Of a stretch of DNA of 64,000 bases, positions 36,024 through 45,940 are shown one piece after another (position 1 is the first letter of the stretch; every line of letters starts with the position of its first letter). The stretch lies in assembly GCF_008727865.1 (NCBI RefSeq), contig NZ_VTWU01000004.1, positions 248,001-312,000 of the forward strand, written 5' to 3'. Position numbers and translations under genes: made by a program. This stretch comes from Hymenobacter busanensis (GTDB lineage: Bacteria; Bacteroidota; Bacteroidia; Cytophagales; Hymenobacteraceae). The notes beneath the pieces were generated by a model. That model did not search any database. It was not told the origin of the DNA and saw nothing but the letters and a program-made list of their open reading frames with translations.

Positions 36024-38339
36024 TCAATTGCGCACCGAAGCCTCCGCACCGGATGCTTGAGAAGCGGCCGGCGCTGCTGCCGATTCGCGGGCGGCGTAGA
36101 GGTTCAGCAGCACCTTTTCGGGCGTGAAAGGCGCCGAGAATTCCGGGCGCACATCGGGGCGGAAGGCGCGTACGGCGTTGCGGATGGCGAAGTAGGCGCC
36201 AAGGCCGTACATCAGCGGCGGTTCGCCCACGGCTTTGGCACGCAGGATGGCGTTGGGGTGGCCGGGCGTTTCCAGAAATTCCACGTCGAGCACCTTCGGT
36301 ACGCTGTAGAGGTCGGGGACTTTGTAGGTACTCAGGGCATTGCTGAGCAGGCGGCCGTCCTGGTTGTAAATCAGCTCTTCCATCGTCATCCAGCCCAGGC
36401 CCTGCACGAGGCCGCCTTCAATCTGGCCGCGGTCGATGCCGGGCGTAAAGCTCTGGCCGAAATCGTGCACAAGGCGCACGGCGTCCACGTCGTAGGTGCC
36501 GCGCATGGCATCTACGGTGGCTTGCACCAGGGCCGTGCCGTACACGTGGTAAGCAAACGGGTGGCCTTTTTCCTGGGTCTGGTCGAACCACAAATCGGGC
36601 GTGGCGTAGTGGGCGTTTTCGCTCAGGTTCACGCGCTTCCAATATGCCGTCGACACCAGCTTTTCCCAGTTCGTTTCGGCGGGCTTGCCGGCGGCCAGCA
36701 CCTGCTCGTCCTGAATTTCCAGGCCCTCGTAGTTCATCTTCAGATCCTCGGCCGCGTGGCGCAGCAGGCGGGTGCGCAGCTCACGACAGGCCATTTCCAC
36801 GGCCTTGCCGTTGAGGTCGGCCGTGGCCGAAGCCGCCGAGGGCGAGGTATTGGCCACTCGGGTGGTGTTGGTGGTTTCCAGCCGCACGCGTTTCGGACTG
36901 ATGCCAAGCGTGCGGGCCGCCACCTGAATCATCTTGGTATTCACGCCCTGGCCCATTTCCACCGCGCCGGTGCTCACGCCCACCGAGCCATCGGTGTAGA
37001 TGTGCACCAAGGCACGGGCCTGGTTCATGGCCGTTTTGGTGAACGAGATGCCGAAGCAAATGGGCATCACGGCCAAGCCGCGCTTTCTCACCGGGCTCTG
37101 TTGGTTGAAAGCGTCGACTTCGGCCTGCCACTTTTTCAGCTCAAACTTCTGGTCGGCAGCCTGCCAGCTCAATTCGGCGTTGCAGTCTTCCACGCGCTGC
37201 CCGTAGGGAAACACCTGCCCGTCCTGCAGCAGGTTGCGGCGCTGAATTTCCCAGGCCAGCACGCCCAGCTCGTCGGCGGCCTTGGCAATGGCCGACTCGA
37301 TAACGAACATGCCCTGCGGCCCGCCAAAGCCGCGGAAGGCCGTGTTGGGCGGCAAATGCGTGCGGCAGCTGTAAGCCGTGGCCCGCACGTTGGGAATGAA
37401 GTAGGTATTGCAGGCGTGAAACAGGGTGCGCTCCAGCACAGCCGGCGAGAGGTCGGCCGCCGCACCGGCGTTTTGGTAAAACGTTACTTCGTAGGCCAGC
37501 AGCTTCAGATCGGCCGAAAGGCCCAGCTTGAAGTCGGAGGTGTAGGGGTGGCGCTTGCCGGTCATGCGCAGGTCGTCGTGGCGGCCGAGCACCAGCTTCA
37601 CCGGCTTCTTGGTCACGAAGGCGCCCAGCGCGGCCAGGGCGCCCCAGGTGGTGGCCTGGTCTTCTTTGCCGCCGAAACCGCCGCCGAGGCGTGTCACGTC
37701 GATTTCGACTTTGTGCATACCCGTGCCCAACACCCGCGCCGTGTGGCGCTGCACCGCCGTCGGGCCCTGCGTGGAGGAGTGCACGCGCACCCCGCCGCCA
37801 TCGGTGGGGTAGGCGTAAGCGCCCTGGGTTTCGATGTACAAGTGCTCCTGCCCGCCGTTTTCGGCCGTGCCTTCGATAATGTGGGCGCATTCGGCCCAGG
37901 CTGCGGCTGGGTCGCCGAGGCGGAAGGTGCGCGGCGGCACAATCAGCTCGCCCTTGGCCTGCGCCTCGCGCGGGTCGGTGATGATGGGCAGCGGCTCGAT
38001 GTCGGCGGTGATGAGCTTGACGGCGGCGCGGGCCTGGGGCTCGGTTTCGGCCAGCACCAAGGCCACGGGCATGCCCTGAAAATGCACGTGCGAGCCGGCC
38101 AGCAGCTCTTCGTCGGGCACGATGCCGCCGATCTGGTTTTCGCCGGGAATGTCCTGGGCGGTAAGGATGCGCACCACGCCGGGCGCGCGGCGGGCCGCTT
38201 CCAGGTTCAGGCTGAGCAGCTTGCCGTGGGCCAGAGGCGAGCCGTACACGGCTGCGTGCAAGGTGCCGCGCTGCACCGGAATGTCGTCGAGGTATTGGGA
38301 TTCGCCGCGCACGTGGCCGGCAGCGTCGAGGTTGTGCAT
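36024..38339 (-). CDS. xdhB: Xanthine dehydrogenase, molybdopterin-binding subunit
   Basis: Large catalytic subunit that hydroxylates hypoxanthine and xanthine in the cytoplasm; 771 aa. The ATG at 38337-38339 gives MHNLDAAGHVRGESQYLDD, the standard start of this subunit. Family motifs: LGGGFGGKEDQA (molybdopterin contact), the FRGFGGPQGMF segment with the substrate-binding Arg, GAVEMGQGVNTKM, SPSAASATADLNGKAV, and near the C-terminus the catalytic Glu in KAVGEPPLMYGLGAYFAIR. It follows xdhA by 182 bases on the same strand. With XdhA (FeS and FAD) it makes a two-subunit enzyme. The maturation factor XdhC is encoded at 17.3 kb. The C-terminal Ala/Ser-rich tail (AAAPAASQASGAEA) is unusual but harmless-looking. 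Confidence 0.95.
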   Translation of the reverse strand: MHNLDAAGHVRGESQYLDDIPVQRGTLHAAVYGSPLAHGKLLSLNLEAARRAPGVVRILTAQDIPGENQIGGIVPDEELLAGSHVHFQGMPVALVLAETEPQARAAVKLITADIEPLPIITDPREAQAKGELIVPPRTFRLGDPAAAWAECAHIIEGTAENGGQEHLYIETQGAYAYPTDGGGVRVHSSTQGPTAVQRHTARVLGTGMHKVEIDVTRLGGGFGGKEDQATTWGALAALGAFVTKKPVKLVLGRHDDLRMTGKRHPYTSDFKLGLSADLKLLAYEVTFYQNAGAAADLSPAVLERTLFHACNTYFIPNVRATAYSCRTHLPPNTAFRGFGGPQGMFVIESAIAKAADELGVLAWEIQRRNLLQDGQVFPYGQRVEDCNAELSWQAADQKFELKKWQAEVDAFNQQSPVRKRGLAVMPICFGISFTKTAMNQARALVHIYTDGSVGVSTGAVEMGQGVNTKMIQVAARTLGISPKRVRLETTNTTRVANTSPSAASATADLNGKAVEMACRELRTRLLRHAAEDLKMNYEGLEIQDEQVLAAGKPAETNWEKLVSTAYWKRVNLSENAHYATPDLWFDQTQEKGHPFAYHVYGTALVQATVDAMRGTYDVDAVRLVHDFGQSFTPGIDRGQIEGGLVQGLGWMTMEELIYNQDGRLLSNALSTYKVPDLYSVPKVLDVEFLETPGHPNAILRAKAVGEPPLMYGLGAYFAIRNAVRAFRPDVRPEFSAPFTPEKVLLNLYAARESAAAPAASQASGAEASVRN

Positions 38340-38521
38340 GGAAGAGGGGAAGAGAACGAAACGCCCGGCCTGTTGCCGGATGGGGCGGTTTGGTCGTTGC
38401 TGATGACTGCATGTAGCGCCAACTTTCAGTTGGTGCTGGTGTGGCACACGCTACTGTGGGGCTGAGCGGTTCCGCATCGGGGCCCAGAGCCCCGGTTCCG
38501 ACTCAAAATCAGCGCTATATT

Positions 38522-39985
38522 CTATACCAATTCCTGCAGCGCGAATTGGGCCGGGAAGTGCTCCAGAAAGTGCGCAAACAGCAACTGGCGCAACAGCAGA
38601 CGCTTGTACGCTTCAGTGCCGCGGGCGTCGCCGATGGGGCTGATTTCCTGCTGGGCTACCTCGTTGGCGGCGCGTAGCGTGTCGGGGTTCAGGTCTTTGC
38701 CGGCTAGAAACGCCGAGGTGCGGCGCAGGTACAACGGCGTGGGTCCCACGCCGCCGCCGGAAAGGTGTGCCTCCTGAATTCGACCATCGGCAACGCGCAG
38801 CCGGGCGGCGGAATTCACGCTGGCAATGTCGAGGTGGGTGCGCTTGCTGACTTTCTCGAAGTTGAATACCTCGTGGGCAGCCGGCGGCCGGAAACTGATT
38901 TCCACCAGTTGTTCGTCGGGCTGGCGGTTGAGCTGCTTGTAGCCGCGGTACAGCTCGCGCAGCGGCAGCTGGCGCGTGCGGCCGGCGGCGTCCTGCAAGG
39001 TCAGCTCAGCGTCGAGGGCAAGGAAAAAGATGGTCAGGTCGCCGATGGGGGAGGCGTTGACGAAGTTGCCGGCCACGGTGGCCATGTTGCGGATGGGCGT
39101 GCTCGACACCAGCTTCAGGTGCTGCCGCAGGCGCGGAAAACGGCGCTGCATCAGCTCCGAGCCGCGCAGATCTTCTACCGTAGTGGCGGCGCCCAGGCTG
39201 ATGCGCCCGTCAGGCGTCTCGCGGATAAAGCAGCGGTCGGCGTGGCCGTAGAGCAGCTGCACCTCGGCGGCCAGCACGTCGTCGGCACGCTGCACCAGCA
39301 GGTCGGTGCCGCCGCCCAGCAGGTAGCTGGCTACGGTGGTTTCGGTGCCGTTCGGCTCGGTGAGCTGACCACCGGTGCGGGCGGCTACGTCGGCCACGGT
39401 TTCGGCGCGTAACTCGGCCAGCTGGGCCGGCATCTGCTGGAAATAGGCCGGGACAAAGCCCTGTTCCACCAGCCAGGCTAGGCGCTCGGGGGCGGCGTCG
39501 CGCTCCAGCAGCTGGGCCGTGAGGCGGTCGGTGGCGCGCTCCAGCGACTTGTAGCCGGTGCAGCGGCAAATGTTGCCGTCGATGGCGGCGCGGCCGGCTT
39601 CATCGGTGGCCTGTCCGCCGAGGCAGTGGCCGGTGAGCGACATCACGAAGCCCGGGGTGCAGAAGCCGCACTGGGTGCCGCCTTCGGCCACAATGGCCTC
39701 TTGCACGGGCGTGAGGCCGGCGGGTTGACTGATGCCCTCGACGGTGACAATGTGCCGGCCGTGGGCGTTGCCGAGCGGCGTGAGGCAGGACGTCATGGAT
39801 TGGTACCGAACTGCGCCGTCGGGCTGCAACTCGCCCACCAGCATGGTGCAGGCGCCGCAGTCGCCCTCGCGGCAACCGATTTTGGTGCCGGTCAGGTGCT
39901 GGTGGTAGCGGACGTAATCGAGCAGGGTGCTGCCGGCTCGCAAGGTGGGCCGCACGAGTTGGTCGTTGAGGTAAAACTGGAGCAT
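38522..39985 (-). CDS. xdhA: Xanthine dehydrogenase, small subunit (2Fe-2S and FAD)
   Basis: Electron-transfer subunit of xanthine dehydrogenase, 487 aa. The ferredoxin-like domain has IGCREGDCGACTML (Cys38, 43, 46) and Cys67 in SMTSCLTPLG. The second cluster domain has QCGFCTPGFVMS and ICRCTGYKSLERA. From about 215 the FAD domain includes YLLGGGTDLLVQ and the family motif IRNMATVAGNFVNASPIGDL, and a CO-dehydrogenase-flavoprotein-like C-terminal domain follows. The ATG at 39983-39985 gives MLQFYLNDQLV, the normal beginning. It is transcribed with xdhB, probably from a TATCTTG box near 40015-40021 on the minus strand. It is divergent from the DUF4136 lipoprotein gene. Confidence 0.95.
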   Translation of the reverse strand: MLQFYLNDQLVRPTLRAGSTLLDYVRYHQHLTGTKIGCREGDCGACTMLVGELQPDGAVRYQSMTSCLTPLGNAHGRHIVTVEGISQPAGLTPVQEAIVAEGGTQCGFCTPGFVMSLTGHCLGGQATDEAGRAAIDGNICRCTGYKSLERATDRLTAQLLERDAAPERLAWLVEQGFVPAYFQQMPAQLAELRAETVADVAARTGGQLTEPNGTETTVASYLLGGGTDLLVQRADDVLAAEVQLLYGHADRCFIRETPDGRISLGAATTVEDLRGSELMQRRFPRLRQHLKLVSSTPIRNMATVAGNFVNASPIGDLTIFFLALDAELTLQDAAGRTRQLPLRELYRGYKQLNRQPDEQLVEISFRPPAAHEVFNFEKVSKRTHLDIASVNSAARLRVADGRIQEAHLSGGGVGPTPLYLRRTSAFLAGKDLNPDTLRAANEVAQQEISPIGDARGTEAYKRLLLRQLLFAHFLEHFPAQFALQELV

Positions 39986-40144
39986 AAGCGGGGAAAACGG
40001 CACAGCCGGACAGGCAAGATATCGAAAAGCAACGTTTGGCCCACTATGGCCGAGTTAGCAAATGATAATCAGCGCAGAAGCAGACCGTCGTTAAGACTTT
40101 TTCGTATCTTCCAAGTCCCCGCCAAACCTCACACAATCTCGCGT

Positions 40145-43558: not shown

Positions 43559-43660
43559 CCCGCGGGCGGCTGTTGCGGGGCGCGGGCTGGTAAACCCTGC
43601 CACAATTGTGTATCTTCCATTACTGTCCGGCGGCTGCCGGGCCTGTTGCTCTTTTGGTTT

Positions 43661-44212
43661 ATGCCGCCGCGTCTTCTATTGCTTTGTTGGTGGGCTCTTG
43701 GGCTGCTTGGGGCGCTGAGCCCGGCGCGGGCTGCTGCTCCGGCACCGCCCACGGTAGCCACAGTCTACGTATTTTTGGCCGAAACCTGCCCCATTAGCCA
43801 GAGTTGCACGCTGACGCTGCGCGAGCTACACCGGCAGTATGCGGCGCGGGGGGTACGTTTTGTGGGCGTGTTCCCCGATGAGCAAACCCGCCCCGCCGAC
43901 GTTATTCTGTTCCGCAAAACCTACCAGGTGCCTTTCGAGCTGAAACTCGACGCGGGCCAGCAACTCACCCGCCGTTGGGGCGCCCGCATCACGCCGGAGG
44001 TGGTGGTGGTGGCTGCCGATGGCCGCACCGTGGCCTATCAAGGCCGCATCGACAACGCGTATGCAGCCTTGGGGCAGCGCCGCACCGTGGTAACTACCCA
44101 CGAGCTGGCCGATGCGCTGGCGGCCGTGGTAGCCGGCAAAGCCGTGGCGCAGCCCCGCACAGAGGCTGTGGGCTGCTTTATCAACGTCAAAGGGTTGCCC
44201 GCCGCCAACTAA
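43661..44212 (+). CDS. Secreted redoxin (AhpC/TSA-like)
   Basis: 183 aa with signal peptide (PPRLLLLCWWALGLLGALSPARAAA). The thioredoxin-like fold starts at VATVYVFLAETCPISQSC; Cys43 in ETCPISQ occupies the peroxiredoxin/TlpA Cys position and Cys49 follows six residues later. Further on, GVRFVGVFPDEQTRPADVILF, then the conserved cis-Pro strand ARITPEVVVVAADG. This CPISQ subtype of redoxin is often found next to, or fused with, cytochrome c and copper-monooxygenase-like domains; exactly such a gene follows 147 bases downstream. It may supply electrons or assist copper or heme insertion in the exported partner (inference). Thiol peroxidase activity is the alternative. Confidence 0.82.
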   Translation: MPPRLLLLCWWALGLLGALSPARAAAPAPPTVATVYVFLAETCPISQSCTLTLRELHRQYAARGVRFVGVFPDEQTRPADVILFRKTYQVPFELKLDAGQQLTRRWGARITPEVVVVAADGRTVAYQGRIDNAYAALGQRRTVVTTHELADALAAVVAGKAVAQPRTEAVGCFINVKGLPAAN

Positions 44213-44359
44213 AAAGGGCGGTGGGCTTAGTGCTTGCGGCGGGTATTTTGCCTATACTACATTGTGATTTTTCTTTCGGGGGTTGCCACTGGCCCATTGC
44301 CTTCTGCCCAACGCCACTGCCGCTTGCTACCCTCTTCTACAATCGTTTTGCCGCACTGC

Positions 44360-45940
44360 ATGATGGACCCTCTACGCAGCTTTTTACGCTTGATGTTGTT
44401 GATGCTGGCCCCCGTTGGGGCATTGGCGCAACCCACGACCCTCAACTTCAGCGAGCATATCGCGCCCATTATTTACCAGCATTGCACGCCCTGCCACCGG
44501 CCGGGTGAAGTGGCGCCGTTCTCGCTCACCAGCTACGCCGACGTAGCAGCACGCGCCCTCACCATCAAGTACGTGACAGGCATCCGCTACATGCCGCCCT
44601 GGAAGGCCGACCCCTCGTACAGCCATTTCCTCGACGAAAATACCCTCACGCAAACCCAGATCGACAACATCCGGCAGTGGGTGGATGCGGGCGCGCCGCG
44701 CGGCAACCCCGCCCTGGAGCCCGCCGTGCCCACGTACCCCAGCGGCTCCCAGCTGGGCACGCCCGACTTGGTAGTGCCCATGCAGCAGAGCTACACCCAC
44801 CAGGGCAACAACCAGGACATGTACCGCGTGTTTGTGCTGCCCGTGACGCTGCCCGCCGACCGCGACGTGGCGGCCATTGAGTTCCGGGCCGGCAACAAGC
44901 GCATCGTGCACCACGCCATTGTGGCCCTCGATACCACCCAGCGCGGCCCCCAGCGCGACGCCCTCGACCCCGGTTACGGCTACACCCAGTTCGGGGGCTT
45001 CGGCTTCACACCCACCGAAGACAACTGGGCCGGCTACGTGCCTGGCTCCAAGCCGCGGTATTTTCCCAACGGCATCGGCAAGAAGCTGTACCGCCGGGCC
45101 AATCTGCTGCTCCAGATTCACTATGGGCCCTCGGCCACCACGCAAGTCGATTCTTCCACCATCAATATTTTCTTCAGCCGGCAGCCGGTGCAGCGCTACG
45201 TGCAAACGATTCCCATATCGGTGCTGCAGCTCACGAACGGGCCCTTCGTGATTCCGGCCAACCAGGTGAAAACCTTCCGCGCCGAAGTGCTGATACCCCT
45301 CGACGGAAGCCTGCTGAGCGTATTGCCTCACGCCCACCTGTTGGGCAAAAGCTGGAAGGCTTGGGGCGTGAAGCCCAACGGCGACTCCATCAAGCTCATC
45401 CGCATCAACGACTGGAACTTCAACTGGCAGGGAGCCTATCGTTTCCCCGCGCTGCAGCATTTGGTGCCCGGCACGCGCCTCACCATTGAGGCCACCTACG
45501 ACAACACGCCCAACAACCCGCGCAACCCCCACGATCCGCCCCAGCAGGTGACCTGGGGCGAGTCGACCACCGACGAAATGTTCGTGTTCTACCTCGACGC
45601 CATACCCTACCGTGCCGGCGACGAAAGCATGGTGCTGTCGGCGCAAAGCACCAAGGACCTCACGTCGCTGGGCAACCACCTGTACCCCGTGTACCCCAAC
45701 CCGGCCGGGGCTGAGGCCTTGCACGTAGGGTTCACGCTGGCCCGGGCAGCGCCTGTTACGCTCACCCTGCGCGACGCCAACGGCCGCGTGGTGCGTACCC
45801 TGCTCCGGCACGAGCGGCGGGCTGCCGGGCCGCACGAGGTGCTGCTGCCCGCGGCCCAGCTGAGCGCGGGCCTGTACCTGCTGCAACTGGAAACCGGCGG
45901 CTTCACCCAAACCCAAAAGGTGATGGTGCTGGGCCGGTAA
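44360..45940 (+). CDS. T9SS-secreted cytochrome c/PHM-like copper monooxygenase
   Basis: 526 aa. Signal peptide (RLMLLMLAPVGALAQ), then a c-type cytochrome domain with heme motif CTPCH (Cys42-His46) and MPPWKAD, containing a possible Met ligand. The rest resembles copper type II ascorbate-dependent monooxygenases (peptidylglycine/dopamine hydroxylase fold). His184-His185 in RIVHHAIVAL and His254 in LLLQIHYG would be the CuH site; His324-x-His326 in LPHAHLLGKSW and Met407 in DEMFVFYLD the CuM site. Order and spacing follow the animal PHM ligands. The last 85 residues form a T9SS sorting domain (LYPVYPNPAGAEALHV). A redoxin gene precedes it. Substrate unknown. Confidence 0.85.
   Translation: MMDPLRSFLRLMLLMLAPVGALAQPTTLNFSEHIAPIIYQHCTPCHRPGEVAPFSLTSYADVAARALTIKYVTGIRYMPPWKADPSYSHFLDENTLTQTQIDNIRQWVDAGAPRGNPALEPAVPTYPSGSQLGTPDLVVPMQQSYTHQGNNQDMYRVFVLPVTLPADRDVAAIEFRAGNKRIVHHAIVALDTTQRGPQRDALDPGYGYTQFGGFGFTPTEDNWAGYVPGSKPRYFPNGIGKKLYRRANLLLQIHYGPSATTQVDSSTINIFFSRQPVQRYVQTIPISVLQLTNGPFVIPANQVKTFRAEVLIPLDGSLLSVLPHAHLLGKSWKAWGVKPNGDSIKLIRINDWNFNWQGAYRFPALQHLVPGTRLTIEATYDNTPNNPRNPHDPPQQVTWGESTTDEMFVFYLDAIPYRAGDESMVLSAQSTKDLTSLGNHLYPVYPNPAGAEALHVGFTLARAAPVTLTLRDANGRVVRTLLRHERRAAGPHEVLLPAAQLSAGLYLLQLETGGFTQTQKVMVLGR

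Follow-up and report, generated by a model that had tools for sequence, protein, structure and literature searches.

A putative exported dicopper monooxygenase with its own cytochrome c domain in Hymenobacter busanensis, and untailed relatives beside SusC/SusD genes

Textbooks present PHM and DBH as animal enzymes that need ascorbate. A stretch of 64,000 nucleotides from Hymenobacter busanensis (hereafter the window, meaning the whole stretch that was analysed) carries two adjacent genes that raise the question of what an enzyme of this kind might do in a bacterium, and where it would find its electrons. The preliminary description of this pair proposed an exported, self-sufficient C-H hydroxylase with the ligand set of PHM and a heme of its own, helped by the redoxin encoded just before it. 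Both open reading frames, and the motifs CTPCH, HH, QIHYG, HxH and Met407, were confirmed in the sequence at the positions claimed. The features are listed here, with residues of the enzyme numbered from Met1 at 44360:

43661..44212, + strand: redoxin (AhpC-TSA/TlpA-like), secreted, without a T9SS tail, upstream of the enzyme; ATG at 43661, stop ends at 44212
43787..43789, + strand: Cys of CPISQ (Cys48 counted from TTG at 43646); Cys in 81/81 rows, window included
44174..44176, + strand: C-terminal Cys of GC[FL]I (Cys177 counted from 43646); Cys in 81/81 rows
44360..45940, + strand: predicted cytochrome c / PHM-like dicopper protein with T9SS tail, 526 aa; ATG at 44360, stop ends at 45940
44360..44428, + strand: predicted signal peptide, residues ~1-23, read from the sequence with an estimated cleavage site
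44483..44497, + strand: heme c attachment site CTPCH, residues 42-46; C, C and H in 124/124 rows reaching it
44591..44593, + strand: Met78 (in YMPPW), which probably serves as the distal ligand of the heme; 125/125 rows
44909..44914, + strand: His184-His185, CuH ligands by homology; 125/125 rows, aligned with HH of DBH 4zel
45119..45121, + strand: His254 (QIHYG), third CuH ligand by homology; 125/125 rows, aligned with the first His of DBH VHYH
45329..45337, + strand: His324-x-His326, CuM ligands by homology; 125/125 rows, aligned with HTH of DBH
45578..45580, + strand: Met407 (DEM), CuM Met ligand by homology; 125/125 rows, alignment to PHM DEMCNLY at E 1.4, not significant alone
45311..45595, + strand: Pfam Cu2_monoox_C match, E 9.1e-6, over cut-off
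45689..45928, + strand: T9SS type A sorting domain, TIGR04183 E 3.7e-9

In wild-type PHM, CuM is bound by H242, H244 and M314. The CuH ligands of rat PHM are H107, H108 and H172 according to an excerpt of PMC6123673, where H242 and H244 are mentioned only for a mutant whose ligands form a merged site. With these CuH and CuM positions, the gaps in animal PHM are 65, 135 and 70 residues. In the window enzyme, the gaps measure 70 (184 to 254), 140 (184 to 324) and 81 (326 to 407), matching the 70, 140 and about 81 given earlier. Among Pfam models, PF03712 (the C-terminal domain) and Por_Secre_tail score over cut-off on this protein, PF01082 (the N-terminal domain) has no match and Cytochrome_CBB3 stays below cut-off. 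Across the 23 members of profile A2, PF03712 is found in 16/23, PF01082 in 1/23 and Cytochrome_CBB3, at E 0.01 or better, in 15/23. The predicted T9SS tail was borne out by both Por_Secre_tail and TIGR04183, the latter also matching 28 of the 50 members of A1. The features of a c-type cytochrome are the CxxCH motif (as CTPCH) and the invariant Met78, a candidate axial methionine.

An AlphaFold2 model of the enzyme, built on 50 aligned rows, has a mean pLDDT of 91, and of only 67 in the ten-residue block that bears Met78. Foldseek against the PDB places human DBH or rat PHM at every rank from 1 to 31 (best E 2.2e-13), and rank 32 is unrelated (E 6.4e-7, TM-score 0.12). The fold match is moderate, with TMt 0.56-0.67 for the PHM entries, 0.38-0.39 for DBH and rmsd 3.9-10.4; identity to PHM in these fold alignments is 14-16%. 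The 23-row profile A2 also finds human DBH (4zel), the best match by fold and by sequence profile, from sequence alone at E 4.7e-6, with HH, the single His and HxH aligned. Because the alignment of Met407 with DEMCNLY of PHM is not significant by itself (profile search, E 1.4), this residue is placed by where it stands in the chain and by its invariance. On its modelled two-domain fold and full set of predicted ligands, the enzyme is a probable member of the PHM/DBH copper superfamily, as the preliminary description had supposed.

How strictly these residues are kept was followed in a 125-row alignment of distinct sequences from several phyla, window included, each with an A2 score above 250 and a span of more than 350 positions. 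From L001-L031 this set took only L002, L008, L009, L017 and L020-L023; it left out L113, L116, L121-L132 and L160-L163, and L180 is also absent. Both copper sites (His184/185 and His254; His324/326 and Met407) and Met78 are invariant in 125/125 rows, so that the homologues keep every claimed ligand position, and CxxCH stands in all 124 rows that reach it, in agreement with the heme site read from CTPCH; the remaining row, L076, is cut at a contig end. Pro79, Pro80, Trp107, Gly229, Gln357, Asn382, Asn386, Asn389 and Glu406 are likewise present in 125/125 rows. Nor do the copper ligands ever vary across the 103 rows of another alignment, made up of the window, 95 loci and 7 second copies; L001, L002 and L024-L031 (the own locus, or matches to the tail alone) and six duplicates (L018, L032-L035 and L091) were excluded from it. 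The invariant set appears to be under catalytic constraint.

Within the same family, 18 of 150 genomes, the window genome G000 included, have a near-full-length match (58-100% identity) and five have a match of about 40% identity, so the gene is patchy. The enzyme profile matches 25/395 Bacteroidota genomes at E 1e-20 and, at E 1e-30, 56/149 genomes sampled in the phylum to which a Singulisphaera record belongs and 4/115 sampled in that of a Verrucomicrobia record. Carriage by viruses or plasmids was considered and rejected: IMG/VR pattern scans with profile A2 and the fused protein confirmed no viral relative, tblastn of P0001 against PLSDB plasmids returned none at E 1e-15, and among the 50 matches listed for predicted viral folds TMq is at most 0.27.

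Is the redoxin, then, a part of this system? The window redoxin matches Pfam AhpC-TSA (1.6e-8) and Redoxin (3.7e-8), its model has a mean pLDDT of 94.8 with 2ywo, 3u5r and 2cvb as the best folds, and a search with TIGR04183 gave no T9SS match. We surveyed its co-occurrence with the enzyme in two samples. The near-relative set leans towards the window protein's kin because it keeps the best 80 of 163 loci (L032-L111); it holds 88 enzyme ORFs, 82 of them with at least 900 nt upstream. In 63 of these 82, the gene immediately upstream, on the same strand, is a redoxin gene. Of the rest, three have a divergent redoxin, five are second tandem copies behind such a redoxin/enzyme pair, one has a redoxin downstream and 10 have none nearby. 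The even Bacteroidota sample comprises 30 enzyme ORFs from profile-matched places: 17 tailed (tail length 90-115 aa), 11 untailed and unfused, one fused (L207) and one N-terminal fragment (L189, which with L188 makes up two fragments of G172); some stretches are short on one side, e.g. L002, L188, L190 and L200. Here, a redoxin is near or fused in 11/30 (six upstream on the same strand, one divergent, three downstream, one fused), namely in 4/17 tailed copies (three of these four downstream), 6/11 untailed unfused copies and the fused L207, while 19/30 have none nearby. The pairing is real among near relatives, but it is not general; the suggested partnership stands for the window's kin and for the fused forms and is weaker in the even sample. 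The redoxin profile matches 267/395 Bacteroidota genomes (E 1e-12) against 25/395 for the enzyme (E 1e-20), a comparison across differing limits. With high-scoring redoxins in enzyme-free genomes and 19/30 copies with none nearby, we rejected the idea that the redoxin is a general or exclusive partner.

In 13 distinct proteins, redoxin, cytochrome and PHM-like parts form one ORF (L118, L140, L145, L147-L151, L153, L154, L156, L157 and L162/L163). Among the best-scoring places, the Planctomycetota loci L141-L154 include 8/14 fused forms, 5/14 with a separate adjoining redoxin and 1/14 with none, where the upstream sequence is short. Fusions outside this group are L118, L156, L157, L162/L163 and the Bacteroidota protein L140. 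The fused redoxin domains keep the first Cys in 13/13 and the last in 12/13. L180 (G546) was considered as a real cytochrome-free form and rejected, as it looks like a deletion or assembly break; it is probably a broken fused gene, since the first part of a redoxin lies in one frame upstream.

G543 has nine profile matches, among which L114 (the same locus as L088), L117, L119, L158 and L159 carry longer C-terminal extensions; no redoxin was found beside the enzyme at these five, in the other G543 copies examined or in both L111 copies. One A1 member that matched TPR models is taken to be L088, and L119 looks TPR-like by eye. In G011 (L126), a redoxin of 71% identity and the window's neighbours are kept, and no PHM gene was found between the redoxin and the glycosyltransferase gene. 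Upstream of the redoxin/enzyme pair in the window, xanthine dehydrogenase-type genes occupy 36024-40003 on the - strand, and the gene at 38522-40003 in this stretch has the same place in G011. At L121, L123, L125 and L131, in enzyme-free genomes, the redoxin relative has a neighbour that resembles a thioredoxin gene by eye and may belong to another system.

A tree of the enzymes, made by a quick method with SH-aLRT as its only support, splits a T9SS-tailed clade, in which the nearest named rows to the window protein are Hymenobacter, from an untailed clade. The untailed clade includes a second copy from the window's own genome (L120, L179; contig C4), which SusC/SusD genes enclose and which lacks a neighbouring redoxin. 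The window copy itself has no SusC/SusD among its ten neighbours by Pfam. In the near-relative set, SusD-like genes are found near 15/29 untailed-clade loci vs 0/48 T9SS-clade loci (Fisher p 2e-8, a value that ignores shared descent), and SusD seed searches returned the same 15 loci. Loci of at least 11 kb make up 24/29 of the untailed and 29/48 of the T9SS clade, with SusD in 14 and 0, respectively. The even sample, chosen independently of SusD and scored within the fetched stretch, has SusD near 10/11 untailed unfused copies vs 0/17 tailed ones. In L181, the SusD gene is incomplete and sits at the distant end of the stretch; four of the 17 tailed copies (L191, L203, L205 and L206) have a SusC-like match without SusD, and the untailed copies L165 (G815) and L204 (G253) have no SusC/SusD pair. 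Across 12 genomes, the matches per genome run from 2 to at least 45 for SusD-like_2 and from 2 to at least 91 for SusD_RagB, so that a SusD neighbour by chance is estimated for under one to ~10% of copies. G814 has just two SusD-like_2 matches in its whole genome, and these flank the enzyme.

The arrangements differ between groups. Chitinophagaceae-type loci run SusC-SusD-redoxin-PHM, Hymenobacter-type loci run SusC-SusD-PHM with no redoxin, and L079, L087, L100 and L110 have a convergent lipoprotein-SusD-SusC block; Pfam scans of example loci bore this out with matches to SusD or to the TonB plug. Further enzyme paralogues in G806, G808, G810 and G811 each have their own SusC/SusD pair. The five genes before SusC that were scanned are two ROK genes (L170, L171) and three FecR genes (L175-L177). 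At L171, L174 and L178, the enzyme is directly followed by a UnbV_ASPIC/FG-GAP gene and a PAP2-superfamily gene, whose product may be haloperoxidase-like. From its gene neighbourhood, the enzyme of the untailed branch is probably part of nutrient uptake, and given the link to SusC/SusD importers the reaction there probably prepares a nutrient for uptake. Synteny in Cyclobacteriaceae-type loci was set aside as a guide to function, as the recurrent neighbours include an apparent ribosomal-protein gene. At L039, L040, L045 and L046, a T9SS-tailed enzyme is followed by a gene of one BLAST cluster, whose L045 member has DUF4886 and PKD domains and a T9SS tail below cut-off.

With moderate confidence, we read the product of the second gene as a dicopper monooxygenase from the PHM/DBH superfamily that the T9SS sorts for export and that brings its own electron relay; the redoxin would work in the periplasm, and the untailed sister would be linked to nutrients. 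Each copper of PHM receives one reducing equivalent, which ascorbate provides (PMC6123673, excerpt); in the bacterial enzyme, the fused cytochrome could supply it instead. The c-type heme, with His and Met ligands, would take ascorbate's place and pass single electrons to CuH, CuM would bind O2, and the enzyme would hydroxylate an external substrate at a C-H (or X-H) bond. The redoxin probably stays periplasmic while the enzyme is exported, since only the latter has a T9SS tail, and a role in assembly therefore fits better than a steady supply of electrons. We are less sure of what that role would be: before export, it may keep thiols reduced or load metal, and in fused forms it may act in cis. 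Metal handling would fit the His-rich ends of nine redoxins from untailed-branch loci. That the redoxin instead donates electrons directly to the cytochrome during turnover seems rather unlikely to us; the 13 single-chain fusions and the two cysteines kept in 81/81 rows speak for it, but in the window pair only the enzyme has a T9SS tail, and 19/30 copies in the even sample have no redoxin nearby.

Other readings of the copper domain were weighed against the favoured one. Since a cytochrome domain can carry electrons in both directions, the enzyme might oxidise its substrate with electrons leaving via the heme, or it might use H2O2, with the redoxin managing peroxide. H2O2 can bypass a PHM requirement (PMC6123673, excerpt), and the neighbouring gene has the AhpC-TSA/redoxin fold. 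However, every ligand of the PHM/DBH set is retained, and PHM consumes a single reducing equivalent for each copper (same excerpt), so we regard this peroxygenase or reverse mode as unlikely. Less probable again is an exported protein that gathers copper or heme, with the SusC/SusD loci as metal importers: it would account for those neighbours and for the nine His-rich redoxin tails, but two separate PHM-like sites and the invariant Met, Glu406, Gln357, Asn382, Asn386 and Asn389 look catalytic. ROK regulators, which make up two of the five pre-SusC genes scanned beside three FecR, are moreover usually sugar-linked. A bacterial peptidylglycine-alpha-amidating enzyme would share fold and copper ligands with PHM, yet columns 322, 409 and 411, which a weak alignment places at the equivalents of PHM Arg240, Asn316 and Tyr318 (substrate contacts), vary, and Pfam named no family of the lyase type (PAL) in the proteins scanned. 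We consider this very improbable and rejected peptide amidation as a working reading. The preliminary interpretation as a whole is partly supported.

How much of this is new? The fold and the copper ligands are already known. PHM (rat; 1phm, 1sdw) and the bacterial enzyme have in common the two-domain copper fold, the ligand order and a similar spacing; unlike PHM, the bacterial enzyme has a heme c domain, which may replace ascorbate, and a T9SS tail, no PAL partner was seen among the scanned proteins, and the substrate-contact residues are not kept. DBH carries a DOMON domain, whereas the bacterial enzyme has a cytochrome c domain in front and bacterial export signals. The window redoxin has the same fold as 2ywi, 3u5r and 2cvb, whose database entries describe hypothetical or uncharacterised proteins or a probable thiol-disulfide isomerase, and 2ywi and 3u5r share its C-terminal GCxI; unlike these, the redoxin of this family is found beside or fused to a copper enzyme. 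In adjoining SusC, SusD, FecR or ROK genes, the untailed copies resemble nutrient-uptake loci; what sets their loci apart is the predicted dicopper heme enzyme. The window copy lies outside such a locus. LPMOs have a different fold, one copper and an electron donor on another protein. A fungal LPMO with cellobiose dehydrogenase is a secreted copper oxygenase that a redox protein can reduce (PMC5987398, excerpt). The bacterial enzyme would likewise be a secreted copper oxygenase reduced by a redox protein, but differs in its fold, its two predicted coppers and its donor in the same chain. Among the matches listed in titles and abstract beginnings of mostly non-subscription literature, we found no description of the cytochrome fusion, the redoxin link or the SusC/SusD link. 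The finding that untailed relatives adjoin SusC/SusD importers is new here.

More tentatively, with a confidence that falls somewhat short of even, we propose oxidative nutrient capture as the wider theme: cytochrome-bearing PHM-type oxygenases would attack a substrate from outside, either on the cell surface or within the periplasm, one branch would pass its product on to SusC/SusD, and PHM and DBH would be animal relatives, dependent on ascorbate, of a family widespread in bacteria. In the window, the surface form may run the same chemistry without a dedicated importer. The link to SusC/SusD makes for a testable claim on substrates, and the importer loci with their regulators offer a handle on induction. 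If the favoured reading is true, the heme domain in the same chain would provide a self-contained system for studying how electrons are supplied to both coppers, and this heme-bearing bacterial branch could show what role the PHM/DBH fold plays outside animals.
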